Source: Bdellovibrionales bacterium (GTDB lineage: Bacteria > Bdellovibrionota > Bdellovibrionia > Bdellovibrionales > UBA1609). From it: a stretch of 34,611 nt of DNA. The translations under genes were made by a program, and so were the position numbers. The stretch lies in contig JAHBUX010000021.1 in NCBI GenBank assembly GCA_019637855.1, positions 1 to 34,611 on the forward strand, read 5' to 3'. Below the pieces are notes generated by a model. That model searched no databases. It saw nothing but the letters and a program-made list of their open reading frames with translations, and had not been told where the DNA came from. Shown here piece by piece: positions 2,809-18,195 of the stretch; position 1 is the stretch's first letter, and each line of letters starts with the position of its first letter.

Positions 2809-4520
2809 AGTTTAAGATCATTCCTCTAGTTCTTTTGGCCTTTATTTCCGGCTCAGTTATCTCCGCGCCTCAAGTGGTTCGTACCTGCGCCCAGGTTGGA
2901 GCTGAATTTGGCCAGTTCATTTGCACAGAGATTTCACTACCAGATTTCTCGCAAATCTTCCCACCTATTGCGATCAATCCCACCCTACCCAATTCGTACT
3001 TTGCTCCTGATCTAAGAACGATTTTGCCGCAGGCGATCCCGGGCTTCGACGGTAGTCAGTTTGATAATATTAGGTCATTTCAGGATCTGCAAAATATCCA
3101 GAACAGGCTGGTGACCAACCTTCCGTCCATCATGGATAGCTTCGTGAACCAATTTATGAAATCGTCGATCGAAATTCCGGATATGAACAGGTTTAGATTG
3201 CCGACCGCTTCAGACTCCGGATTAATGGCAGTAATTCCTCAAACGCCATCTAGTGACGAAGTTATCAGGATGGCGAAGGACCATTTGCGGTCAAGGGGCA
3301 CACCCCTAAATATGGATAGTGGAAATCATATTCAAGCTATGTCGACACTCTTCTTTAGGTTGTTGAAGAGTGAGCGACCTATTTTTGAAAACTATGTGAG
3401 GATGCAAAATGAGATAAATGACAAGCTTGTCGCTGTCGCTACGGCTAAAACCTCCCAGACCTCTAGAGAGTTGATGACAGTACGGCTCGATGAGCAATCA
3501 GTGATAATTGGCGGAGAGGTTTTGGCACGCGAGGAAGTGGGCGCGTACGGTTCTCGCCCTAGAGACCCAAGTCTTCAGCATGCCTATGACAAGCTTGCGT
3601 CGATTCGAGATACGTCACCCCAAGCTTCTTATGCCGCAAGCAAGGGTCTTCAGTTACTGAACTATGCTGATCTCGCTTACGCTGCAGGTGATCGTGAGCT
3701 CGGAGATTTCTATAGAAGCATGGCGCTAACATTGGCGGATATTGGGATTGGATTTATCCCTGTAATTGGTCAAGCGCAGGCAGTTTATGAATTCACCGTC
3801 GGTAAAAGTGCTCTTACTGGTGACGAGTTGAGTTCCGGTGAGCGAGCGATTGCTCTCATTGGCATTATTCCTGCGGGTGGCAAGGTTGCAAAGATCATTG
3901 GTCAGCTTGCAAAAAATGGAAAAGAAGCTGCACATATAATTCAGGCCTACGATTCGCTCAAAAATGTCTTTAGCCATATAGATTTTAGGAAAAACAATTC
4001 TCTATTTAAGAGTCTTCAAAGGGCCATCATAAAACACATGGACGAGTTCGAGATCAAAAGGATATTGGGTGCCGATGAATTAAATGCATTTCATTTGAAA
4101 TCTAATCCTGGACACCAAAGGCCTTTTCAGGCGTGGACGCACGGATTCGAAGTTGCGACCAAACGTGAGGAGAGATTCATACGTTTCTCCGAAGTCGCCG
4201 CGCCTGCTGGGCCTGGCAAGTCCTCTCCCATAGGTGGTTTCTTGGTTCGCGAAATAGATGTCCTAGATTTGAAGAATTCTGGCCTATCTCCAGAGCAGAT
4301 TGGCATTGAGATCAAGAAGAGGTTTTCGCTTCCTGGAGATAGTCCGCTTTATGCGAGTGATGTTATGGTACCGAAAGGAATAACGATTCATGCAGGTAGG
4401 GTTGCAGGTCAGTTCGATGGAGGCGAGGGAGCGATGCAGTATGTATTGCGAGATCCGATTTCGCAGTCCAACTTTACCAGCAACGTCCGTAGTATAAAGG
4501 ATTGGCTCAATGGAAAATAG
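2805..4520 (+). CDS. Secreted polymorphic-toxin-like protein: signal peptide, pre-toxin TG-like region, variable C-terminal domain
   Basis: The 571-residue product starts with a clear Sec signal peptide (MKFKIIPLVLLAFISGSVISA). Residues about 30-290 form an unrecognised region with many Asn, Pro and Gln. Residues about 312-375, with GFIPVIG (316-322), SALTGDE and a hydrophobic GIIPAGGK segment, closely resemble the pre-toxin TG domain that sits just before the toxic domain in many polymorphic toxins. The C-terminal ~155 residues are the presumed effector domain. Features there are RFSEV, a Gly/Pro-rich run, then GRVAGQF and GAMQYVLRD. The spacing recalls TNT-type NAD-glycohydrolase or ART-like toxins, where a GQPGGG-QY motif carries a catalytic Gln, but I cannot confirm this. 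Its ATG overlaps the upstream stop, and its own stop overlaps the next start by 11 bases. Toxin activity is inferred, not shown. Confidence 0.75.
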   Translation: MKFKIIPLVLLAFISGSVISAPQVVRTCAQVGAEFGQFICTEISLPDFSQIFPPIAINPTLPNSYFAPDLRTILPQAIPGFDGSQFDNIRSFQDLQNIQNRLVTNLPSIMDSFVNQFMKSSIEIPDMNRFRLPTASDSGLMAVIPQTPSSDEVIRMAKDHLRSRGTPLNMDSGNHIQAMSTLFFRLLKSERPIFENYVRMQNEINDKLVAVATAKTSQTSRELMTVRLDEQSVIIGGEVLAREEVGAYGSRPRDPSLQHAYDKLASIRDTSPQASYAASKGLQLLNYADLAYAAGDRELGDFYRSMALTLADIGIGFIPVIGQAQAVYEFTVGKSALTGDELSSGERAIALIGIIPAGGKVAKIIGQLAKNGKEAAHIIQAYDSLKNVFSHIDFRKNNSLFKSLQRAIIKHMDEFEIKRILGADELNAFHLKSNPGHQRPFQAWTHGFEVATKREERFIRFSEVAAPAGPGKSSPIGGFLVREIDVLDLKNSGLSPEQIGIEIKKRFSLPGDSPLYASDVMVPKGITIHAGRVAGQFDGGEGAMQYVLRDPISQSNFTSNVRSIKDWLNGK

Positions 4521-6397: not shown

Positions 6398-8284
6398 TCA
6401 ATCTAGAGATTGATCTAGCCTGGGAAGGGAAACAATTGCCTGCGTAAAGCCGGTCTGGGAAAGAATCTCCAGGTTTCCGCCGTGATCTGAGACGATGGTG
6501 TGGGCTGTCGTAAGTCCCATGCCGCTATAAAGGACCGGGTCTCTAGTCGTGAACAGAGGATTGAAAATTTGACTGCGCACTTCCGAGCGAATGCCAGTAC
6601 CATTGTCGGAAATTTTTAGCAGGTATTTGCCTTGCTCGCTCTCCAACGTCACTTCGATTCGTCCGTGCAACTGCGGCTCGACCGTCAAGCGCTCCGTGAT
6701 GGCGTCGATGGAATTCTGCAAAAGGCTGCATAACGCTTGCGACAAAGCGTTGGAGCTAGCGCGGACAAGGGCGGGCTTCTCTTTTATATAGGTGACGTCG
6801 ATGCCCTTTGAGCGCGACTGCAATTCGATCAGCTTCACCGAGCGCTCCAGAATATGCCACAAATCGACTTCGGCCGAGTCGCCCAGGTCCTGCTTGCGTG
6901 CAAAGCTGAGCAAGTTCTGAATGATGTCACGGCAGCGCAGAGTGGCGCTCTCCATAGCTTTGATCTCACTATACAGAGGTTCGGTTTTCTGCATGTCCAT
7001 CAAGATAAGTTGAAGAAACGACAGCATACCGCCCAAAGGATTGTTGAGCTCGTGCGCAATGCTGGACCCGATGGTGCCCAGCTCAGCCAGTTTGGAGGCC
7101 TCTAAGATGCGACGTTCGTAGCGCACCTCTTCGGTTATTGGGCGCAGTAAAATCAATTGCACGCTTTGATTGTCGTGTGTGAGGCCAAGGCGCTGACCCG
7201 CCACTTCATAGGTTTCACTCTCGCCGCGCGCCGTGCTGCGATTGTTGCGGAAGGTAAAGGGGCTGTCGAGCCGATGCGGCGGTTGAAATTCGCGGCCAAA
7301 GAAAACTTCAAAGCAGCGCTTGCCGATAAGATCGCGAAAGTTGTTCTCGCCGGCGCAAGCCTCTTGAAAAGCGCTGTTGAGTTTTAAAATTTCGAAGTCG
7401 GCAGTGACCAAACATAGAGGATAGGGGATCGAGTCGAACGTGGCTTGCCACTGACCCTTCACGGTCTCGGCCTGCTCGAGCTTCTGCAGTCGAGCCAATG
7501 CGAGCGCCAAGGCTTCAGAAAGTTCTTGTAGAAAATCGATTTCATCCGCCGAGAAGCGTTTGCCCTCGGCTTTCGCGAACATCACTTCACCGCGTGAATT
7601 GTCATACTGATAGGGCAGCTCCACGCTGAGAATATTGTGGCCGCTTTGATTCTTGAGAGAGGATTGGCTGTCAAAGCGCACGCGCACCCATTCGATTTCA
7701 ACGGTGCCGTGCAGAGCTTCGTTGAGCATTTTCTCCATTTGCAAAACCGTCGAAGCGCGGTGAATTCCGAGCAAGGCTTTGTGAAAGGCGGCCATGCGGG
7801 TGGTGGTTTCATCGAGGGTGCGTAAAGTCTTGCGCAGCGTTTTATGGCGCTTTTGCACGCGCGATTCGAGTTCGCTCTTCAGGCGCTTTAAGCGCGTGGA
7901 CTGATCTTCGAACAAACTGACCAGTTGGCGGCGCTGGGCCTGCTCGCCACCGGCTTCAAGCGCGGATTGCAATTTGGCCTCGAGCTCAGGGTCTTCAAAG
8001 CTATCAATTAGATCGTGCACGCGGCCCGCATTGGTCCATTCGATCAGCGCGGTGGGCGCAACGCCTTCGCTCGCTACGATCCATAGTGAAGCGGGCGCGC
8101 TCTCGGTGGCAAAGGCGCAGAACTTTTCCAAATCACCCTTGCGCCCCCCGCCGAACACCAGCACGGAGGGCTGGTGCAGCGCTAAATAGTCGCGCGCCTC
8201 TTTGAAGCTAGGGACAAAGGCGGCGCCGATATCCAGCCCTTCAGGCCGCGGATGTCCGATCACCAGCACGTTGGAGGATTGCAT
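6398..8284 (-). CDS. Hybrid-looking sensor histidine kinase (pseudo-receiver, coiled coil, GAF, PAS, HisKA, HATPase)
   Basis: The 628-residue protein has no clear membrane segment. Residues 1-110 look like a receiver fold, but where the phospho-acceptor Asp is expected the sequence reads VLVFGGG, so this part is probably a pseudo-receiver. A charged coiled coil follows (about 115-165), then a GAF-like region (160-270) and a PAS domain (275-390). HisKA has the H-box IAHELNNP with H411, and the ATPase domain carries DNGTGI and GMGLTTAH. It should be a cytoplasmic NtrB-like kinase for the NtrC-type regulator downstream. The gene follows the M14 peptidase by only 21 bases, so the three probably form one operon. 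The binding site before the ATG is poor. Confidence 0.9.
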   Translation of the reverse strand: MQSSNVLVIGHPRPEGLDIGAAFVPSFKEARDYLALHQPSVLVFGGGRKGDLEKFCAFATESAPASLWIVASEGVAPTALIEWTNAGRVHDLIDSFEDPELEAKLQSALEAGGEQAQRRQLVSLFEDQSTRLKRLKSELESRVQKRHKTLRKTLRTLDETTTRMAAFHKALLGIHRASTVLQMEKMLNEALHGTVEIEWVRVRFDSQSSLKNQSGHNILSVELPYQYDNSRGEVMFAKAEGKRFSADEIDFLQELSEALALALARLQKLEQAETVKGQWQATFDSIPYPLCLVTADFEILKLNSAFQEACAGENNFRDLIGKRCFEVFFGREFQPPHRLDSPFTFRNNRSTARGESETYEVAGQRLGLTHDNQSVQLILLRPITEEVRYERRILEASKLAELGTIGSSIAHELNNPLGGMLSFLQLILMDMQKTEPLYSEIKAMESATLRCRDIIQNLLSFARKQDLGDSAEVDLWHILERSVKLIELQSRSKGIDVTYIKEKPALVRASSNALSQALCSLLQNSIDAITERLTVEPQLHGRIEVTLESEQGKYLLKISDNGTGIRSEVRSQIFNPLFTTRDPVLYSGMGLTTAHTIVSDHGGNLEILSQTGFTQAIVSLPRLDQSLD

Positions 8285-9074: not shown

Positions 9075-10448
9075 ATGTCTGCATTTTCAGCCATCATTTT
9101 AGCCGCCGGAAAAGGAACTCGTATGAACACCCCGCTACCGAAGGTGGTGCACCCGGTGGCCGGTCGACCCATGATCGAACGTGTGCTCAAAGCCGTCAAA
9201 GGTGCAGGCGCCCGCGAGGTACGAGTTGTGGTCGGATTTGGTGAGACCTTGGTTCGGCAGATCGTTGAGCCCATGGGGGCGGTGTGCTTCAAGCAAGAGA
9301 AACAGCTGGGCACCGCCGACGCCGTTCGTTCGGCCCAACCGGATTCTCTGGATGGCGATGTGGTGATCTTGAACGGCGACCATCCGTTGATGGAAACCGC
9401 TGATATCGAGAAGTTCCGCAAAGAGTTTCGTGAGAGCAAGGCCGACATCGCCGTCGTGACCTGTGAATTGGAAGACCCCGCCTCTTTCGGCCGCGTGGTT
9501 CGTCATGGCGGAAAGTTGCGCGCCATCGTCGAGATGAAAGATGCCTCGCATGAAACGCGCAAGATCAAAGAGATCAACACCGGCATCTACGTGGTGAAAT
9601 CGCGCATTTTGAACTCTCTGTTGCCGGAAATTGAGAGCCGCAATGCTCAAGGTGAGTTTTATCTTACCGATCTGATTCAGCTAGCCGTTGACGGTGGATT
9701 CAATGTCGAAGGCTTGAAAGCCGACCCGCGCGTGGCTTTGGGTGTGAACACGCAAGTCGAGCTGGCCGAAGCGACGCGCTTAGCGTTCGCTCGCAAAGCC
9801 GCCCGCTTGCTCGAGTCCGGCGTGATGCTTTTGCAACCCGAAGCCACGTTTGTCGAAGACACCGTAGAGATTGAGCCGGCGGCGATTCTATACCCCGGGG
9901 TTTTTCTGCGGGGAGCGACCAAGATCGGTGCCTTCGCCGTGGTTGAGCCCGGTTGCGTGCTTACGGATGCGCGTGTGGGCGCGAATGTTCACTTAAAAGC
10001 CGGTTGCTACATTACAGATGCTTCGATTGGCGCGGGCTCGGATATGGGACCGTACGCGCAGCTGCGTCCCGGTACCGAAGTGGCCGAGAACTGTCACATC
10101 GGAAATTTTGTTGAAATGAAGAAAGCCAAGTTCGGCCGTGGCGCGAAGGCGGGGCACTTGAGTTATCTTGGTGACGCAGAGATCGGCGAGAACACCAACA
10201 TTGGATGCGGCACTATCACTTGCAACTACGCCGCGGACCGCAAGAAGTACGTCACCAAGATTGGTAAAGATGTTTTTGTCGGCAGTGATTCGCAGTTCGT
10301 CGCTCCCGTGTCGGTGGGCGACGGCGCGGTTATTGGCTCGGGTTCGACGATCACCAAAGACGTTCCGGCTGGCGCGTTGGCCGTGACTCGCAGCCCGCAG
10401 ATCATAAAAGAAAATTACAAACCGCGCGCTCCTGGAGAGAAAAAGTAA
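9075..10448 (+). CDS. glmU: Bifunctional GlcNAc-1-P uridyltransferase / GlcN-1-P acetyltransferase
   Basis: GlmU makes UDP-N-acetylglucosamine, the precursor of peptidoglycan and LPS, in the cytoplasm. The 457-residue length is typical. The N-terminal pyrophosphorylase domain starts with LAAGKGTRM and has QLGTADAV and NGDHPL. The C-terminal half is a left-handed beta-helix of hexapeptide repeats with GPYAQLRPGTEV, NFVEMKKA, GHLSYLGDAEIG and GCGTITCNYA, which hold the acetyl-CoA and substrate sites. Its TAA stop shares one base with the glmS start (TAATG), so the two steps of the pathway are translationally coupled. Confidence 0.97.
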   Translation: MSAFSAIILAAGKGTRMNTPLPKVVHPVAGRPMIERVLKAVKGAGAREVRVVVGFGETLVRQIVEPMGAVCFKQEKQLGTADAVRSAQPDSLDGDVVILNGDHPLMETADIEKFRKEFRESKADIAVVTCELEDPASFGRVVRHGGKLRAIVEMKDASHETRKIKEINTGIYVVKSRILNSLLPEIESRNAQGEFYLTDLIQLAVDGGFNVEGLKADPRVALGVNTQVELAEATRLAFARKAARLLESGVMLLQPEATFVEDTVEIEPAAILYPGVFLRGATKIGAFAVVEPGCVLTDARVGANVHLKAGCYITDASIGAGSDMGPYAQLRPGTEVAENCHIGNFVEMKKAKFGRGAKAGHLSYLGDAEIGENTNIGCGTITCNYAADRKKYVTKIGKDVFVGSDSQFVAPVSVGDGAVIGSGSTITKDVPAGALAVTRSPQIIKENYKPRAPGEKK

Positions 10449-12280
10449 TGTGCGGCATCGTCGGTTATCTTGGTCCAAAAAATCCTAAAGATGTCATCAT
10501 GACGGGCCTGAAGGCGCTTGAGTATCGTGGATACGACAGCGCCGGCGTGGCCATCTTGCATGAAGGTAAGTTCAAGCGCGTGCGGGCGGAAGGTAAGCTC
10601 GGCAATCTGAGTGAGAAACTGGCGTCGGAACCTTTTAGTGGTCACCTTGGCATCGGTCACACTCGTTGGGCCACGCACGGAAAGCCCTCCGAGCGCAATG
10701 CCCATCCTCATTCCGTGGGTTCGGTGAGTTTAGTCCACAACGGTATTATCGAAAACTATGTAGAGCTGCGCCAAGAGCTGGTGCGTGAAGGTGCGGTCTT
10801 TGAATCTGAAACCGATTCGGAATTGGTGGCCCATTTGGTGGATCGCCAGTTGGCAAAGACCCCCAATCTTCTGGATGCGGTCTTGCAAGTGTTGCCACGT
10901 TTGCAGGGCGCTTACGCAATTGTGGTGGTGAACGAAAAGCAACCCGACACGATGGTGGCTTTTAAAAATGGTCCGCCGTTGATCGTGGGTGTGGGTGATG
11001 ACGCCATGTATGTGGCTTCGGACATTCAGGCTTTGGTCAACTACACGCGCCGTATTGTGTATTTGGATGATGGTGAAGTCGTTGAAGTAAAAGGCCCTTC
11101 TTACAAAGTGTTCTCGGCCGCGGGCCAGCCTTTGCAGAAGAAAGTGAACGAAGTGAATTGGACTTCCGAGGTGGCCAACAAAGGCGGCTTCTCCCACTTC
11201 ATGCTGAAAGAGATTTTTGAACAGCCGCGCGCCGTGGCTCAAGCCATTCAGCCGCATATCAATCTGGCCAAGAATTCGGTCGAGTTGAACGGCGTTGGCT
11301 TCGATGTGAACGATGTGTTCCGCGATATTGAGCGCGTGTTTGTCGTGGCGTGCGGCACTTCTTACTACGCCGGCTTAATCGGCGAATACATGATTGAGCG
11401 TTTGGCGCGTGTGCCGGTCGAGGTGGATATCGCCAGCGAATTTCGCTATCGCCACCCGGTTTTGCCTAAGAATTCGCTTTTTATTTCCATCTCGCAAAGC
11501 GGAGAGACCGCCGATACCTTGGCTGCGGTTCGTTTGGCCAAGCAAGCTGGCGTGAAGGTGTTGAGCATCTGTAACGTACGGTCGTCTTCCATTGATCGCG
11601 AGGCTGACGGGCATCTGTACATGAACGCCGGCGCCGAAGTGGGCGTGGCGTCCACGAAAGCATTTTCTGCCACGTTGGCCTTGTTGAACCTTCTGTCGTT
11701 AGCTTTGGCTAAGGCACAGGGGCAGTCGACCATTGAAGAAGAACAGAAGCTGGTGCGCCAGCTTCTGGCGGCGCCTTCGCAAATCGAGATCTGCTTGAAC
11801 CTGGATAAGTTTTTTAAAGAAGCTGCGGATAAACTGAAGAACTACCGTGGCTTTTTGTATTTAGGTCGCGGTGTTCACTATCCGATCGCTTTGGAAGGTG
11901 CTCTGAAACTGAAAGAGCTCGCCTATATGCACGCTGAGGGCTACGCCGCCGGCGAGATGAAGCATGGGCCGTTGGCTTTGATCGATAAAGACATGGCGGT
12001 CGTCATGATGGTTCCGCATGATGAATTGTTTGAGAAGTCGCTGAGCAATTTGGAAGAAGCGAAAGCCCGCGGCGGTCAGATCATTTCGATCGGAACAGGT
12101 CATAACCCGCGCTTAGAAGAAATATCCGAACATTACTTGTCGTTGCCAGAGGTCGATTGGTTCACTCTGCCGCTGCTTGAGGTTGTACCCGTGCAACTCT
12201 TGGCGTTCCACGTGGCCTCGTCGTTGGGTCACGATGTGGATCAGCCGCGTAACTTGGCTAAATCGGTGACGGTGGAGTGA
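10448..12280 (+). CDS. glmS: Glutamine--fructose-6-phosphate aminotransferase
   Basis: GlmS makes glucosamine-6-phosphate from fructose-6-phosphate and glutamine, the first step towards UDP-GlcNAc. The 610-residue protein starts MCGIVGYLG, so Cys2 becomes the N-terminal nucleophile of the glutaminase domain (residues 2-215; RGYDSAG and THGKPSERNAHPH are conserved). Two SIS domains follow (about 290-420 and 460-590), with SISQSGETADT, GRGVHYPIALEGALKLKE and the C-terminal AKSVTVE. No glmS ribozyme leader is possible, because the gene begins on the last base of glmU. Its final codons lie in the left arm of the giant palindrome. Confidence 0.97.
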   Translation: MCGIVGYLGPKNPKDVIMTGLKALEYRGYDSAGVAILHEGKFKRVRAEGKLGNLSEKLASEPFSGHLGIGHTRWATHGKPSERNAHPHSVGSVSLVHNGIIENYVELRQELVREGAVFESETDSELVAHLVDRQLAKTPNLLDAVLQVLPRLQGAYAIVVVNEKQPDTMVAFKNGPPLIVGVGDDAMYVASDIQALVNYTRRIVYLDDGEVVEVKGPSYKVFSAAGQPLQKKVNEVNWTSEVANKGGFSHFMLKEIFEQPRAVAQAIQPHINLAKNSVELNGVGFDVNDVFRDIERVFVVACGTSYYAGLIGEYMIERLARVPVEVDIASEFRYRHPVLPKNSLFISISQSGETADTLAAVRLAKQAGVKVLSICNVRSSSIDREADGHLYMNAGAEVGVASTKAFSATLALLNLLSLALAKAQGQSTIEEEQKLVRQLLAAPSQIEICLNLDKFFKEAADKLKNYRGFLYLGRGVHYPIALEGALKLKELAYMHAEGYAAGEMKHGPLALIDKDMAVVMMVPHDELFEKSLSNLEEAKARGGQIISIGTGHNPRLEEISEHYLSLPEVDWFTLPLLEVVPVQLLAFHVASSLGHDVDQPRNLAKSVTVE

Positions 12281-12371
12281 GGAAAGGTACCAGCTTCCTT
12301 TTTGGCATGCATTGCGCCACTTCGTGGCCGCGATGCATGCCAAAAAGGAAGCTGGTACCTTTCCTCACTCC
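12274..12371. repeat. Giant near-perfect palindrome between convergent genes (possible bidirectional terminator)
   Basis: Bases 12274-12312 are perfectly complementary to 12333-12371: 39 bases per arm with no mismatch. The stem then continues with T-G, G-C, C-G and G-C pairs towards an apex GCCAC-TTC-GTGGC. The arms contain the stop codons of both glmS (12278-12280) and the convergent DciA-like gene (12365-12367). T5 lies in the left arm and A5 in the right arm, the reverse of the usual A-stem-T order of a bidirectional intrinsic terminator. Termination would therefore depend on the huge hairpin itself. Each 3' end would form the same structure in RNA, which could also protect transcripts from 3' exonucleases. 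Confidence 0.9.
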
Positions 12372-12745
12372 GAATCCAAAAACCCCTTAAACTGATCCGA
12401 TACTTGATCGGGCTGTGGGAGGCCGCGCCGGTCTAGAGTGAAGCGTATGCCTTTGACCCAATCGCGGCCGACGTGCTCGTTCACCTTCTCTTTCAGAGTC
12501 TTTTCAAAAAAGCGGATCTCTTGCATGCGGGCGGAACTTTTTACCCAAACAATCAGACGACCGCGTTCATACCCCACCGGCTCGCAATGCGTACCTAAGG
12601 TAGGCCCTACAATTTTGGTCCAAAAGCGCCAGATCTTCCAGCGCAGGAACTGATCGGACAGGGGCGACTTGCCATTTGCGAGCAAGGTCTGTAGAACCTT
12701 CGACGCAGGCAGCAATTCTCTCCGTTTCTTTTTATCATCGGCCAT
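12365..12745 (-). CDS. DUF721 / DciA-like protein
   Basis: The product is about 126 residues when started at the internal ATG at 12743-12745; an ATG at 12760 would add five residues and overlap the trmFO start. The order of conserved patches (LLANGKSPLSDQFLRWKIWRFW...VGPTLGTHCEP, then LIVWVKSSARMQEIRFF) fits the DUF721 family, which includes DciA, the loader of the replicative helicase DnaB in most bacteria. The charged tail after about residue 100 is variable in the family. It is divergent from trmFO and convergent with glmS. Its last codons sit in the palindrome. Family assignment is good; the helicase-loading role is inferred. Confidence 0.75.
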   Translation of the reverse strand: MADDKKKRRELLPASKVLQTLLANGKSPLSDQFLRWKIWRFWTKIVGPTLGTHCEPVGYERGRLIVWVKSSARMQEIRFFEKTLKEKVNEHVGRDWVKGIRFTLDRRGLPQPDQVSDQFKGFLDSE

Positions 12746-12758
12746 AGGAGTCCGTAGC

Positions 12759-14186
12759 ATGTCCCGTTTAAACCCGCAAATCTCGATTGTTGGCGGCGGC
12801 TTGGCTGGCAGCGAATGTGCCTATCAATTGGCTGAGATGGGTCACTACGTGCGCCTATATGAGATGCGTGGCACCGGAACCACCACTCCCGCACATAAAA
12901 CAGACCGGTTGGCTGAGCTTGTATGTTCAAACTCGCTGGGCTCCACTACGGACTATTCCGCACCGGGGCAATTGAAGTGGGAGGCCGAGCAGCTTGGCTC
13001 TCTAATCCTGCGTGCAGCCCGCAATGCGGCTGTACCAGCAGGTATGGCGTTGGGTGTGGATCGCGACGTGTTTGCAGCGGAAATCACTGAGACTTTGGAA
13101 AAGCATCCGCGTATTGAGATCGTGCGCGAAGTTGTGCGCTCGCTCGATGAAATTCCGCGCCCTGCGGTGATCGCCAGCGGTCCTTTGACCGACAGCGCAT
13201 TGGCCGAGAGCCTGCGCCAGCATTTTGATGGCGAGTTCATGTACTTCTTCGATGCCATCGCGCCAATCATCGACGCCGATTCGATCAACAAGTTTGTAGC
13301 CTACAAAGCCGATCGGTGGGGTAAGGGCAATCGCGACTACTACAATTGCCCGCTGAACAAAGAGCAGTATGAGAACTTAATTAACGAAATCAAAAATGCG
13401 CGCAAAATTGAGCCAAAGGAGTTCGAAAAGGACACGCCGTACTTTTCTGGCTGCATGCCTGTTGAGGCGATCGTCGAACGCGGCGATCAAACTCTGCGCT
13501 TCGGACCGATGTCGGCCAAGGGACTGCGCAATCCAATGACCAACCAGCCAGCCTATGCGGTGGTGCAGTTGCGGCAAGACAATAAAGAGGGCACGGCCTT
13601 CAATATGGTCGGCTTCCAGACCAAGATGGCCTACGGCGAGCAGGTTCGGGTGTTCCGTATGATTCCCGGCCTGGAGAATGCCGAGTTTTTGAAGTTAGGC
13701 AGTATTCATCGCAATCTATACATACAGACGCCGAAAAAACTGACTCCGGAACTGTCGTCGCAAAAAGACGATTGGTTGTTTTTCGCCGGTCAGATCACCG
13801 GTGTTGAAGGCTACTTTGATTCGACTTGCATGGGCTTGCTGGTTGCCCATTTTCTCAATGACAAGTTGAATGGCCGCCAGATTTCAAAGCCACCCCGTGA
13901 GTCCGCTTTGGGCTCTTTGCTTAACGGTATCACCGAAGACAACGAATACTTCCAACCGACCAACATCAACTTCGCCTTGTTCCCGCGGCCTGAGGGACTA
14001 ACAGGGAAGAAGAAGCGCGAACAAAAGGATTTGAAACGCAAATTACAATTGGATCGCGCCAAGAGCGCGCTGGTCGAATGGATGCGGGCGAAGGGCTTGC
14101 CCTTGAAGATCGCATGGCCGCCACCTGCGGAGGTTGGTGCTGCTGAACCGGAACCCGATAAATTGACAGAGACCTTGCATACGTAA
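12759..14186 (+). CDS. trmFO: Folate-dependent tRNA (uracil-5)-methyltransferase
   Basis: TrmFO methylates U54 in the T-loop of tRNAs using methylenetetrahydrofolate and FAD. The 475-residue protein starts MSRLNPQIS, followed by the FAD-binding VGGGLAGSECAYQLAEMG. Conserved TrmFO stretches follow: HKTDRLAELVCSNSLGS, FFDAIAPI, GFQTKMAYGEQ and FAGQITGVEGYFDS. I chose the ATG at 12759 because AGGAG lies eight bases upstream and the FAD motif then sits at the usual distance from the start; the longer frame from 12669 overlaps the divergent gene. It ends in a charged, Pro-rich tail of about 30 residues. The next gene starts 72 bases later. Confidence 0.95.
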   Translation: MSRLNPQISIVGGGLAGSECAYQLAEMGHYVRLYEMRGTGTTTPAHKTDRLAELVCSNSLGSTTDYSAPGQLKWEAEQLGSLILRAARNAAVPAGMALGVDRDVFAAEITETLEKHPRIEIVREVVRSLDEIPRPAVIASGPLTDSALAESLRQHFDGEFMYFFDAIAPIIDADSINKFVAYKADRWGKGNRDYYNCPLNKEQYENLINEIKNARKIEPKEFEKDTPYFSGCMPVEAIVERGDQTLRFGPMSAKGLRNPMTNQPAYAVVQLRQDNKEGTAFNMVGFQTKMAYGEQVRVFRMIPGLENAEFLKLGSIHRNLYIQTPKKLTPELSSQKDDWLFFAGQITGVEGYFDSTCMGLLVAHFLNDKLNGRQISKPPRESALGSLLNGITEDNEYFQPTNINFALFPRPEGLTGKKKREQKDLKRKLQLDRAKSALVEWMRAKGLPLKIAWPPPAEVGAAEPEPDKLTETLHT

Positions 14187-14257
14187 AATTTAAGTTTTGT
14201 TAAAAAATTAGAAGTGGCTCGCAAACGCACTAGTTGTTGAATTTCGAAGGGACTGCG

Positions 14258-15175
14258 ATGAACACCGAAAATATATTTGCTAACTTGATCTCTACTCCTC
14301 ATGGAGCGCTTTACATGGGCGTGTGCCTGAGCGTGGGAGTGCTGTCAAGCGCACTGGCGATTGGTTACTACACGATCTTTCGTTATCCATCGCTCATTTA
14401 CTTTGCCATCTCCGTACTGGTTTCCTACGCCGTATTCGGTTCGGCCGCCACCAATCCACGCATGCTGATAGAGCTTTCGCACCCTCCGGCTGACTTCTAT
14501 TTCCAGCAGATTTCGGCCACCGTTGGGTTCTTCTTCTTTTTCAAGATGGTGACGGAAAGCTTTGTGCCGTTTCCCAAGGGCTTGTCATTGCGTGCGTTTC
14601 AAATCGTGATCAGCGTTTTGATTGCTGTTCGAGTCTACGCGACCTTTGCACCTCACCCCTGGGCATTCCGCGCGGCTTCGGTTCTTTGCATTACTTTTTT
14701 GCTCTATGCCAGTGTCGTGGCCTTGCGCTATCCCGCCACCACTTCGGCCATGCGCTTGGTCCGAGTTGCCTGTGCGTTTCCGTCGTTGCTGTTCGTTCTT
14801 TACCCGATGATCCGGCTTGGGATTTTGCCCGCATCGTGGGGTAATAGCCAAATGGCCGCGCTGATGGTGGGCGGGCTAACGTTGCATTCGATATTGTGGT
14901 TTTTAGGGTTGGTAGAACTCGCTCGTGAGGCGCGCGAAAAAGAGAAAGCCGCATCTCGTGACCGCATGGCTCGCACACTCGTGCAGTTGGGCGACATGAT
15001 GGGAAATCCGTTGGATACCATCGAGGATACGGTGGCGAAACTTGGAAACAACAAAGAAGAACTTGTGCATGTGCTGGAGAAAATGGACAGCTCCGTCAGC
15101 CGTCTCCGTTTGATCGAAGCGGTGCTGTCGCGCTACGAAAAGAACACGCGCACGGTCTCCGACGAGGGGGCGTAG
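14258..15175 (+). CDS. Seven-helix membrane protein with histidine-less HisKA-like tail
   Basis: The 305-residue protein starts at ATG 14258, with GAAGGGA six bases upstream. Seven hydrophobic segments (from YMGVCLSVGVLSSALAIGY to LTLHSILWFLGLVEL) are followed by about 75 cytoplasmic residues. That tail reads like the dimerisation and phosphotransfer helix pair of a histidine kinase (LVQLGDMMGNPLDTIEDTV). However, the position of the catalytic His of the HExxNPL box is Asp246, and there is no ATPase domain. It could be a dimerising membrane sensor or a decoy partner for a kinase, but no function is known to me. The gene ends in a hairpin and converges with the Mla operon. Confidence 0.75.
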   Translation: MNTENIFANLISTPHGALYMGVCLSVGVLSSALAIGYYTIFRYPSLIYFAISVLVSYAVFGSAATNPRMLIELSHPPADFYFQQISATVGFFFFFKMVTESFVPFPKGLSLRAFQIVISVLIAVRVYATFAPHPWAFRAASVLCITFLLYASVVALRYPATTSAMRLVRVACAFPSLLFVLYPMIRLGILPASWGNSQMAALMVGGLTLHSILWFLGLVELAREAREKEKAASRDRMARTLVQLGDMMGNPLDTIEDTVAKLGNNKEELVHVLEKMDSSVSRLRLIEAVLSRYEKNTRTVSDEGA

Positions 15176-15191
15176 CTGCGGCCACGCTCCC
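15166..15191 (+). terminator. Hairpin at the end of the seven-helix protein gene
   Basis: GGGGGCGT (15166-15173) pairs with ACGCTCCC (15184-15191) through one G-T wobble, and TTTTT follows nine bases later. It overlaps the stop codon and lies between convergent genes, so it may stop transcription from the left. Confidence 0.35.
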
Positions 15192-15195
15192 AGGG

Positions 15196-15990
15196 TTACT
15201 TTTTGCTTTCGTTGGTTTGAATGGATTCGCGAATCAGCGGTTTTAAGAACTTGTTGCGGGGAGAATCTCCGAAAAAAGAGGTGATGCGGTTGTGCAGGGA
15301 CGGGTCGTTGATTAAAGCGCCCAGAGTGCCTTGGCCGTTGTCGATCTTCCTCATCACGCCGGCCATAGGTTCGATCGCATCGGTTCTCATCAAACGGAAG
15401 GTTTCGCGAGCTTCCACCATAAACTTACCGAACTGATCGGTGCTCTCCACCAAGTTGCTCATCAGTTTGGCGCTGCGGCCGTCTTTGTTGATGTTTTCAA
15501 AGAGCAGGCGCACCTCTTTGATCACGCTGACGATCTCACCGAGCTCGGCGCCCTTGGAAGCAATCATATCAATCAGGTCCGGTGTTTTGTCGGTCTCAAG
15601 AATAGCGCCGTCTTTGAGCGGCGGATTGGTGGGAGATCCGGGTTCAATATAGATAAATTTATCGCCCAATGCACCTTGGGTTTTTACAGAGGCCTTTGAA
15701 CCTTCGGTGATGCGTTTTTGCACGGCCTCTTGCAGTTTCAACGTCACTTCGACGTCTGACGAGTTTTCGATAAAGTTGATCTCGTCGATGTTACCGACTT
15801 GCACACCCGTCAATGTGACCACACTGCCACGGCCCAGGCCCTGCACCTGCGGCAAGCGCACCTTAAGGTCATAGGTATCCGTGAAGAAGGATTTGTTTCC
15901 GCCCAGTAGGACGATGGACAGGCAGAACAGCACTACGCCTAAAACTGCAAATACACCTACTTTAATCTGTGTGCGTAGAGATGTTTCCAT
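15196..15990 (-). CDS. mlaD: MCE-domain substrate-binding protein of a lipid ABC transporter, MlaD-like
   Basis: The 264-residue product has one N-terminal membrane helix (VGVFAVLGVVLFCLSIVLLG), then an MCE domain with the typical start YDLKVRLPQVQGLGRGSVVTLTGV and a GDKFIYIEPG stretch. MlaD hexamers sit on the inner-membrane transporter and pass phospholipids to and from the periplasm. The C-terminal half is helical and ends in a Lys-rich tail, longer than in E. coli MlaD (about 183 residues). It is the last gene of the operon: its start lies one base after the mlaF stop. Confidence 0.9.
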   Translation of the reverse strand: METSLRTQIKVGVFAVLGVVLFCLSIVLLGGNKSFFTDTYDLKVRLPQVQGLGRGSVVTLTGVQVGNIDEINFIENSSDVEVTLKLQEAVQKRITEGSKASVKTQGALGDKFIYIEPGSPTNPPLKDGAILETDKTPDLIDMIASKGAELGEIVSVIKEVRLLFENINKDGRSAKLMSNLVESTDQFGKFMVEARETFRLMRTDAIEPMAGVMRKIDNGQGTLGALINDPSLHNRITSFFGDSPRNKFLKPLIRESIQTNESKK

Positions 15991-15991
15991 A

Positions 15992-16729
15992 TCAATAGCC
16001 TCCGTAATCTCCGGTGATAAAACGTTCTAGCGGACCCGGGTCTTTGCGGCTGAGCTCGTCGGCCCGGCGCTCGTCCAGCACGCGGCCCTCGCCCAGCATA
16101 ACAAAGCGATCGCAGACGGCGATGGCCGTAGGCATATCGTGCGTGACGAACACTGAAGTGACGCCCTTCTTTTTTAGACGCAAAACCGTTTCGCGGATTT
16201 TCAATGTGTTGTAGGGATCAAGACCTGCCGTCGGTTCATCGTACAAAATGACCTTGGGACCAATCATCATCGCGCGCGCGAGGCCTACGCGTTTTTGCAT
16301 ACCGCCTGAAAGCTCGGCCGGCAGCTTACCCTCGGCCTCAAGTAGACCGAATTCTTCGAGTTGATCGTGAATGCGGGTTTGAATTTCGTCTTCATTAAAG
16401 GCGGTATGTTCGCGCAATGGGTAAGCCAAATTGTCGTACACGGACATCGAGTCGAACAGCGCGCCGTTTTGAAAAACGTAGGCTACCTTTTTGCGAATGG
16501 CGGTCAGATCGCGTTCTTTGAGTTTAGAAATCTCTTCGCCTTCGATCCAAATCTCTCCGCTGGTGGGCTTTTCAAGGCCAATCAGGCTGCGTAAAACTAC
16601 GCTCTTACCGATGCCCGAACCTCCGACTAAACCGAGGCACTCGCCTTTCTCAACACGGAAGCTGACGTCCTTGTGGACCGCATGTCCATCGAACGATTTG
16701 TTGAAGTGTTTGACCTCGATTATAGCCAT
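15992..16729 (-). CDS. mlaF: ATPase subunit of the Mla lipid transporter
   Basis: The 245-residue ABC ATPase starts MAIIEVKHFNKSFDG. It has Walker A GGSGIGKS, signature LSGGMQKRVGLARAM, Walker B VILYDEPTAGLDP and an H-loop VFVTHDM. I chose the ATG at 16727-16729 because ABC ATPases of this family start just before the first beta-strand, and the longer frame would run deep into mlaE. It overlaps the end of mlaE by ten bases. It powers the MlaE permease at the inner membrane. Confidence 0.95.
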   Translation of the reverse strand: MAIIEVKHFNKSFDGHAVHKDVSFRVEKGECLGLVGGSGIGKSVVLRSLIGLEKPTSGEIWIEGEEISKLKERDLTAIRKKVAYVFQNGALFDSMSVYDNLAYPLREHTAFNEDEIQTRIHDQLEEFGLLEAEGKLPAELSGGMQKRVGLARAMMIGPKVILYDEPTAGLDPYNTLKIRETVLRLKKKGVTSVFVTHDMPTAIAVCDRFVMLGEGRVLDERRADELSRKDPGPLERFITGDYGGY

Positions 16730-17487
16730 TGCTCGAAGATCCAGAAGAACTTGGTTAGAAAATAATCGCCGACCAAGATGCAAATCGAAGAGGTCACCAC
16801 GGACTGACGAGTGGCGCTGCCGACACCCTTGGTGCCGCCTTTGACGGTCAGGCCAAAGTAGCACCCCACAATGGCGATGATGCCCGCGAATACCGGAGTT
16901 TTGAAAAAGCCGGCCAGAAAATCAGGAACCCAGACGGTGGTTAGAACTTTTTGTACGAAGAACACCGGGTCTAGGCCCAGGTCGTTGGCACCTACGAGTA
17001 GGGCGCCCAAGATACCGACGAAGTTTGCAGCAATGGACAAAATGGGAATGGCGATCAAAGCACCGATCACGCGTGGGATCACGATGCGTTTGATGGGAGA
17101 TGTGCCCAGGGCGCGAATGGCGTCGATCTGTTGTGTGACGGTCATCGAGCCGATCTCGGAAGTGATACCGGCGCCAATGCGAGCTGCGAGCACCAAGCAG
17201 GTGAACACAGGGCCCATCTCGCGCACGATCGATAGCGATACGATCTTGGGGATGTAGAGTTTGCCACCAAATTTCTCAAGCCCTAAGCCGAACTGCAAAG
17301 CCATGACCATGCCGGTCGAGCCGGCCGTGACGATGACCAAAGGCAAAGAGCGAATACCGATTTGATAGATTTGCTCGACGATCAAGCGAAAGTACAACGG
17401 GCGGCGAAACAGTTCGCTGACCACCTGCTTGCTCAGGATGGTGGTGCCGCCAAAGAGTTTGAGAAAGTCGAGCTGAGCGGCCTTCAT
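16720..17487 (-). CDS. mlaE: Permease subunit of the Mla lipid transporter
   Basis: The 255-residue MlaE/DUF140 protein has an N-terminal amphipathic region followed by about five to six membrane helices. Family stretches are visible: LVIVTAGSTGMVMALQ, IVREMGPVFTCLVLAARIGAGITSEIG, MTVTQQIDAIRALGTSP and KGGTKGVGSATRQSVV. The last part contains the coupling helix contacting MlaF. The start overlaps the stop of the preceding lipoprotein gene (ATGA), and the end overlaps mlaF, so expression is tightly coupled. Confidence 0.95.
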   Translation of the reverse strand: MKAAQLDFLKLFGGTTILSKQVVSELFRRPLYFRLIVEQIYQIGIRSLPLVIVTAGSTGMVMALQFGLGLEKFGGKLYIPKIVSLSIVREMGPVFTCLVLAARIGAGITSEIGSMTVTQQIDAIRALGTSPIKRIVIPRVIGALIAIPILSIAANFVGILGALLVGANDLGLDPVFFVQKVLTTVWVPDFLAGFFKTPVFAGIIAIVGCYFGLTVKGGTKGVGSATRQSVVTSSICILVGDYFLTKFFWIFEQWL

Positions 17488-17978
17488 GGCGCTTGGAACC
17501 CTTCGACAAAGCGGCTGAAGTCGGCGCGGTTATCCGCAAAGGCTTTCTTTACGCCGACGTAAGACAGCATGTAAATGCACATGTTGCGCTTAAACACCAA
17601 AAGCTCGATGCCCGAGGGAACACCATCGACTTTGCCGAACGCCACCACGCGACGGCCTTCACGGCCTTGAACAGTGACGGTTTCGCTGGATTCGGTCTTC
17701 AAGTCCGACAGGCCGGAGACAATGCCTTGCACGATCTGGTCAAGCGGCGGATCTGACGGATCTTTACAATCCGAGAGGAACGAGATCACGTTGCCGTTTT
17801 TTGGGTTTTTCCAGGCGGCGTCCACACTGGCGCGAGTTTCCTCGGCAAAGCCATTGCCCGGAGCACGGTAAGTCACGCCCTCGGCACGACTGCCTTTGCC
17901 GCCACCATCAAGCTTCACGGTCACGCAACCGGATAGAAGAATGCTGACCAGAATGTAAATCAAAGCTGTGTTATTCAT
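17484..17978 (-). CDS. Lipoprotein heading the Mla operon
   Basis: The 164-residue product starts at ATG 17978 behind an AAAGGG site. It has a lipoprotein signal peptide with lipobox LLSGC (C18). The mature part has an early Gly-rich linker and then a mixed alpha/beta domain with AAWKNPKNGNVISFLSDC; I cannot place it in a named family. As first gene of a coupled lipid-transport operon it may be a periplasmic or outer-membrane partner of the transporter in place of a separate MlaC or MlaA; this is inference. A longer in-frame start at 18098 would put 40 residues before the signal peptide and is unlikely. Confidence 0.8.
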   Translation of the reverse strand: MNNTALIYILVSILLSGCVTVKLDGGGKGSRAEGVTYRAPGNGFAEETRASVDAAWKNPKNGNVISFLSDCKDPSDPPLDQIVQGIVSGLSDLKTESSETVTVQGREGRRVVAFGKVDGVPSGIELLVFKRNMCIYMLSYVGVKKAFADNRADFSRFVEGFQAP

Positions 17979-18195
17979 CGCTGTTGGCCCTTTGGCTAAT
18001 TGTCTTTTCGGAATACAAACGAGGACTCTCAAGGTCGTGTCATTGATTTGTCGTGGGCCCTCGGAAACTGACGTGATCCGCCTGGCCTTTAGGCGCATCC
18101 ACCGTAGTAAGTAATCGTAAATGCGATCGATGTCCAGCTGGCATCAAAGCTGCTTTACATCCAAACGGATCACTCTCACTTGTCGGGGGAAAGTT

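Follow-up and report, generated by a model that had tools for sequence, protein, structure and literature searches.

The window, which is the whole 34,611-nucleotide stretch of DNA analysed here, carries an intact ORF on its forward strand at 14258-15175, with an ATG start and a TAG stop. It encodes a protein of 305 aa, in which a membrane region is followed by a tail that resembles the DHp domain of HisKA kinases at the level of its family. The features of the locus are given below.

12669..14186, forward strand: trmFO (GidA family; PF01134, 291.7 bits), the neighbour lying 71 nt upstream of the gene; context only
14258..15175, forward strand: gene for the 305-aa protein, with a membrane region and a DHp-like tail that is almost certainly kinase-dead; intact ORF, homologue P0002
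14306..14914, forward strand: membrane sensor region, residues about 17-219, 7TMR-DISM-like; six hydrophobic segments, seven helices in a low-confidence model
14954..15148, forward strand: DHp-like (pseudo-HisKA) tail, residues 233-297; family alignment, profile against HisKA, kinases retrieved by the profile
14993..14995, forward strand: Asp246 codon, at the catalytic-His position; His in this column in 22/22 aligned kinases
15005..15007, forward strand: Asn250 codon, at the His+4 position, the phosphatase residue of HisKA kinases; Thr, Ser or Asn in 16/16 tails
15196..15990, reverse strand: MlaD-domain gene (PF02470, 66.4 bits), the convergent downstream neighbour; context only

The gene had been described as standing alone after trmFO, and this was confirmed: trmFO lies directly upstream and the MlaD-domain gene, followed by ABC-ATPase and MlaE-permease genes, lies downstream on the opposite strand. 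A promoter and terminator scan of 13900-15400 gave 0 and 2 sites, compared with 0.7 and 2.6 in shuffled sequences, so no excess was seen. In the window (10448-18098) the trmFO, glmS-like and mla genes are arranged and oriented differently from those of congeners (L106, L107, L108), and the trmFO-mlaD interval of the congener genome G002 contains other genes. The interval therefore looks variable in the genus.

A Kyte-Doolittle scan of the protein showed six segments above 1.5, all within hydrophobic residues 17-219. Two AlphaFold models were available, with mean pLDDT of 52 and 54, the second of them from the single sequence. The AF2 model with mean pLDDT 52, which is of low confidence, displayed one additional helix at residues 76-102, giving seven in all; beyond the membrane part, a long helix reaches residue 262 and a further one spans 269-303. 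The first-pass annotation had called the protein seven-helix. Six of these helices are supported by the hydrophobicity scan and the seventh appears only in the low-confidence model, which leaves the count plausible and not proven. In Pfam, the protein matched 7TMR-DISM_7TM (PF07695) with 14 bits over residues 18-219, below the curated cutoff of 29, and the NCBIfam scan gave no match. Its likeness to the 7TMR-DISM receptors lies in the homologue P0002, which exceeds the same cutoff with 30.7 bits, and in the alignment of the window protein along the same stretch. It differs from them in its own sub-cutoff score, in having no extracellular DISMED domain listed by Pfam and in having no HATPase. 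The membrane regions of 12 family proteins fell into groups without mutual match at E<=0.01, namely the window protein with P0002, the bulk of the others, and L114 alone. As these groups are mutually unmatched, different sensors carry the same tail.

The tail of the protein reads LGDMMGNPLDTI (second printing: MARTLVQLGDMMGNPLDTIEDTV), and its relatives were collected stepwise. The full-length homologue P0002 in genome G109 showed E=1.7e-34 and 25-26% identity; among 140 genomes of the order it was the only full-length homologue besides the window's own, and two other genomes gave partial matches (E 0.006-0.007). Searched with the lone window protein at E<=10, 47 genomes of the taxonomic family yielded, apart from the protein itself, 10 matches that were weak and partial, and none of the 28 stretches that it matched in the wider contig collection was confirmed. 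A two-row profile retrieved seven further tails from 143 genomes of the class. The eight-row tail profile, run on 368 genomes of the phylum, had 12 strong matches (E<=6e-9), which are spread over 7 genomes and comprise the eight training genes, L116 and three new ones in G247. At E<=0.01 the same profile found some match in 128 of the 368 genomes, mostly weak. A pattern scan of contigs in the wider genome collection added L165 (Oligoflexales), L166 (Polyangiaceae), L167 (Oligoflexaceae) and L168 (a Proteobacteria MAG), together with two members known already. Family size is a lower bound, given by the 368 genomes of the phylum and by one pattern in the wider collection.

The handles L163 and L164 denote the same loci as L117 and L113, respectively, and each locus was counted once; L113 with L117, and L115 with L116, appear to form orthologous pairs. 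In L112 and L116 the sequence is truncated or broken, and L165 is cut by a contig end, so that its 5' neighbour is not visible. G247 holds three of the membrane proteins (L154, L155, L156), with a receiver gene upstream of just one. Judged from these searches, the family is small and sporadic, lies mostly within the window's phylum and appears to be new.

The lone window protein showed no Pfam match to HisKA or to HATPase at E<=10, and it was not among the 56 matches of a HisKA scan of its own genome (E<=1). When its tail was aligned with hhalign against 30 HisKA domains of the same genome, the probability was 1.9% and the score 14.0, inside the range of the shuffled controls. The family tail profile behaved differently against the same domains, with a probability of 87-91% and a score of 32-34, while 60 column-shuffled versions of the Asp-only alignment reached at most 9.7% and a score of at most 18.0. 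The tail had earlier been called HisKA-like, with an HMM search as the proposed check; the similarity is thus absent for the lone sequence and significant for the family profile. With the Asp-only profile, the hhalign match sets in immediately past the Asp/His column, and the equivalence of that column therefore rests on a column check of the hmmsearch alignment. Of 23 weak-match loci fetched (L125-L147), 22 gave an aligned ORF and L142 gave none. In all 22 proteins the Asp246 column holds the kinase His, within the motif HExxxPL (HDMGTPL in one). This bears out the earlier placement of Asp246 at the His position.

Ten of these weakly matched proteins were scanned; all showed HisKA over the cutoff, and nine also showed HATPase, the one exception being truncated at a contig end. 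By comparison, Pfam HisKA (PF00512) exceeded its cutoff of 26.9 in 0/10 family proteins scanned (the window protein and nine relatives). Sub-cutoff matches were seen for L114, which belongs to the window's genus (18.2 bits, E=0.0027), L154 (11.6 bits, E=0.3) and P0002 (11.0 bits, E=0.45), and none was listed at E<=1 for the remaining six relatives. We conclude that the tail is very probably a DHp domain descended from HisKA kinases. The tail profile also weakly matched receiver-HisKA-HATPase proteins (L125, L128, L130, L132), in which the receiver-then-DHp order of the gene pair described below occurs in a single chain.

Sixteen tails could be compared residue by residue. The His position is Asp in 14 and His in two (L111, L112), and Glu is found at His+1 in none. 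Asn occupies +3 in 15 tails, with Gly in the window copy; +4 is Thr in 10, Ser in five and Asn in one, the window copy; Pro is present at +5 in all 16; and +7 is Gln in 15, with Asp in the window copy. Four of the tails (L165-L168) were found through the pattern RD[LR][TIN]N[TS]PLQ, which makes their motif partly a matter of construction, and leaving them out gives Asp 10/12, His 2/12, Asn at +3 11/12, Thr, Ser or Asn at +4 12/12 and Gln at +7 11/12. Some of the weakly matched kinases carry HEINTPLQ (L127, L134), so Asn at +3, Thr at +4 and Gln at +7 may be plain inheritance. Against the family motif of the RDxxN[TS]PLQ type, the window copy has kept Asp, Pro and Asn at +4 and has not kept Arg at -1, Asn at +3 and Gln at +7.

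By script, at most 65 further residues precede the stop in 15 tails, and the ORF of L112 ends about as soon. This is too short for the 111-position HATPase profile and leaves no room for an ATPase domain. The window protein itself ends 59 residues past Asp246, in agreement with the earlier statement that no ATPase domain follows. His loss among the homologues is general with two exceptions, L111 (976-1851) and L112 (1411-1941), which keep the His (HLIN[ST]PLQ), yet lack Glu at the next position and, like the others, an ATPase domain. These two might act as phosphotransfer proteins.

Published genetics gives these residues a meaning. As reported in PMC3510030, the acidic Glu at His+1 of HisKA kinases is required for kinase activity only, and Thr or Asn at His+4 for phosphatase activity only. 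Phosphatase activity of HK853 without its CA domain has been reported by other authors, according to a passage of PMC7005713, and the His itself is possibly part of the phosphatase chemistry, a point that PMC5231405 presents as contested. Taken with the tail counts, this means that the kinase-specific parts were lost and that the phosphatase-specific residue was kept as Thr, Asn or Ser. On its sequence, the protein is almost certainly kinase-dead.

Gene neighbourhoods were compared over 16 loci, 15 of them with a visible 5' neighbour. A single-domain receiver gene lies directly 5' on the same strand in 11 of the 15, and receiver linkage played no part in finding any family member. The receiver-only proteins have about 120-136 aa, and the acidic pair, the phospho-Asp, the Thr and the Lys are kept in 7/7 aligned receivers. 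The junction between receiver and sensor genes is a 4-nt overlap in eight loci, a 20-nt overlap at L168 and a 46-nt gap at L154; we infer translational coupling of the two genes. Receiver and sensor occupy 3069-3437 and 3434-4288 in L163, and 3018-3404 and 3401-4234 in L167. The first-pass annotation had proposed that the protein could bind a response regulator without phosphorylating it, and the many relatives whose genes adjoin a receiver-only gene argue for such binding. The four loci without a receiver gene 5' are the window, L155, L156 and L112.

Receivers of these loci (L154, L111, L168 and others) weakly match PF20274 (cREC_REC, cyclic-phosphate processing receiver), with L154 reaching the 27-bit cutoff. 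At L116 (1053-1779) what follows the receiver gene is a remnant of the pseudo-DHp gene that has lost its membrane region. The pair lies next to a gene encoding a HATPase domain in L163, L164 and L162. In L163 (3069-6163) and L164 (3066-6159) the three-gene order is a receiver-only protein, the pseudo-DHp membrane protein and a 7TMR-DISM/HATPase protein with an LSHDLSN motif; HisKA in this third gene showed E=0.023 in L163 and was unlisted at 0.05 in L164. The receiver gene of the G002 locus comes after a HisKA-HATPase kinase gene. Counting the third gene of L163 and L164 and the kinase of G002, a kinase-like gene, a receiver gene and the pseudo-DHp gene occur together in three loci.

The window copy is a divergent orphan. 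Its 5' neighbour is trmFO and not a receiver gene, and the best match of the module-receiver profile in its genome was 43 bits, where four module receivers left out of training scored 94-135 bits. A dedicated receiver relocated elsewhere in the genome (L157) was considered and rejected, as it gives these 43 bits; its gene overlaps a HisKA-HATPase kinase gene. L157 (541-2137) consists of this receiver-only gene and the overlapping kinase gene, whose product has a weak C-terminal receiver match. Three congeners showed no match to the window protein at E<=0.001, and the gene is absent from the trmFO-mlaD neighbourhoods of G001, G002 and G003; G002 holds another family member elsewhere (L114). With no receiver neighbour, and with Gly for Asn at +3 and Asp for Gln at +7, the window copy must either have an unlinked receiver as its target or be in drift.

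The tail was also aligned with kinase DHp domains of its own genome (30 of the 56 HisKA matches, and a 628-aa kinase encoded in the window). The alignment to P0002 gave z 17.4, compared with a best value of 3.4 among the 30 HisKA domains. The 628-aa kinase (6398-8284; HisKA 40.5 bits, HATPase 53.8 bits) had been put forward as a candidate partner. Its DHp domain showed z=1.6 against the tail, compared with 17.4 for the family homologue, and as it has no special similarity we rejected it as a special partner.

The computed results, namely the family-level DHp homology, the loss of kinase features, the residue at His+4 and the receiver linkage in relatives, are consistent with a membrane sensor that is no longer a kinase, docks to a receiver and most probably accelerates the removal of its phosphoryl group. 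We give this reading a probability of roughly 45%. On this reading, the HisKA-derived DHp domain has lost its phosphoacceptor His, mostly to Asp, the Glu next to it and the entire ATP-binding domain, and has kept Thr, Ser or Asn at His+4, where Thr or Asn positions the attacking water in HisKA phosphatases. The sensor would dock to the receiver encoded just 5', which has a complete phosphorylation site; the adjacent receiver is the most likely target because in most relatives the sensor gene directly follows, and usually overlaps, the receiver gene. On a signal at the membrane, the sensor would speed dephosphorylation of the receiver, or hold it, and phosphorylation would be left to an ordinary kinase. 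Docking, phosphatase activity and control by a signal are thus the parts that we infer. The sensor probably binds receivers or turns them off rather than on. Ser at +4 in 5/16 tails, unlike the Thr or Asn of the cited work (PMC3510030), counts against a phosphatase, and for the window copy Asn at +3, Gln at +7 and a receiver partner are all missing.

The same homology and linkage data would fit a pseudo-DHp that has no phosphatase activity and only binds the receiver, perhaps in its phosphorylated form only, so that the receiver is sequestered or sensed at the membrane, in the manner of DivL or PhyT. DivL, which has Tyr in place of the His, binds and stabilises DivK~P, as described in PMC4211667. 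PhyT, which is membrane-anchored and has a degenerate ATPase domain, keeps PhyR at the membrane, and according to PMC5898713 its phosphatase activity was not detected in vitro. Both proteins have a catalytic-like or degenerate ATPase domain, however, whereas it is wholly missing here, and Thr, Ser or Asn at His+4 in 16/16 tails would be unneeded for docking alone. We regard pure docking as rather unlikely.

An accessory subunit, with the tail in mixed dimers that tune a true kinase, was the first of the two roles proposed in the first-pass annotation and is also conceivable, since DHp domains dimerise. RocA offers a precedent, being described in PMC7028121 as a pseudokinase with six putative TM domains that works through CovS, and in L163, L164 and L162 a HATPase-domain gene adjoins the pair. 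The recurrent neighbour is nevertheless a receiver gene (11/15), with a kinase-like gene in three loci, and the window tail is far from the own-genome kinase DHp domains compared (best z 3.4 of 30; 1.6 for the 628-aa kinase), and this role appears improbable. For the window copy in particular, the gene may be a degenerating relic that lost its partner and is on its way out: it has no receiver neighbour, the best receiver of its genome scores 43 bits against 94-135, Asn at +3 and Gln at +7 are not kept, and three congeners show no match to the protein at E<=0.001 and do not have the gene between trmFO and mlaD. Yet the 305-codon ORF is intact, and Asp246, Asn at His+4 and Pro have been kept at 25-26% identity to P0002. 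Three further orphans exist (L155, L156, L112), of which L155 and L156 retain Asp, Asn at +3, Thr at +4, Pro and Gln at +7. We therefore consider decay of the window copy improbable, and a sensor that promotes dephosphorylation remains the preferred reading. Tentatively, the family may represent a kinase-free class of membrane receptor phosphatases, in which the off-switch would be a separate transmembrane sensor with a DHp domain alone, Asp for His, a gene overlapping that of a single-domain receiver, and interchangeable sensor domains.

Among known receiver phosphatases, CheX, CheC, CheZ and the Rap proteins are soluble and have unrelated folds. The ExxN motif of CheX and the DxxxQ motif of CheZ, as given in PMC3510030, resemble the D-x-x-N or D-x-x-x-N spacing of the family, and the resemblance is one of motif spacing only. 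The HisKA (PF00512) DHp of bifunctional kinases such as EnvZ, HK853 and CrdS shares with the family an aligned helix with an xxNPL/NTPL motif, Thr or Asn at His+4 (in the family also Ser) and a membrane sensor before it. The family differs in having Asp for His in 14/16 tails, no Glu at His+1 and no HATPase domain.

DivL, a pseudo-histidine kinase of Caulobacter, likewise has a DHp domain without the phosphoacceptor His and acts with the regulator DivK, which is a single-domain receiver. It differs from the family by its CA-like domain, its PAS domains and the Tyr at the His position, and in the account of PMC4211667 this pseudokinase, although it binds its regulator without having the His, does not act on it as a phosphatase. 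PhyT/PhyP of Sphingomonas is described as a membrane protein with a DHp and no working ATPase that acts with the single-domain receiver SdrG; in contrast to the family, PhyT can be phosphorylated on its His, has an HRxxN motif and a degenerate ATPase domain, and relays the phosphoryl group. RocA of Streptococcus is described as a pseudokinase that combines a DHp domain with six putative TM domains, and differs in that its His is present (H246, dispensable), in its CA-like domain and in acting through the kinase CovS.

The phosphatase activity of bifunctional kinases has been examined, in the work cited, with laboratory variants in which the CA domain was removed or the His or neighbouring residues were changed. 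The natural loss of both the His and the CA domain, next to a receiver, would let one ask what a DHp domain limited to binding or dephosphorylation does. The family could show whether Asp stands in for His, and it could separate kinase sensing from phosphatase sensing within one pathway. In open-licence papers we found no description of an Asp-for-His, DHp-only family paired with a receiver; related proteins covered there include DivL, ChrS, RocA, PhyT and laboratory constructs. This class of pseudokinases is already known, and the part that appears new is the Asp-for-His, DHp-only family paired with a receiver.
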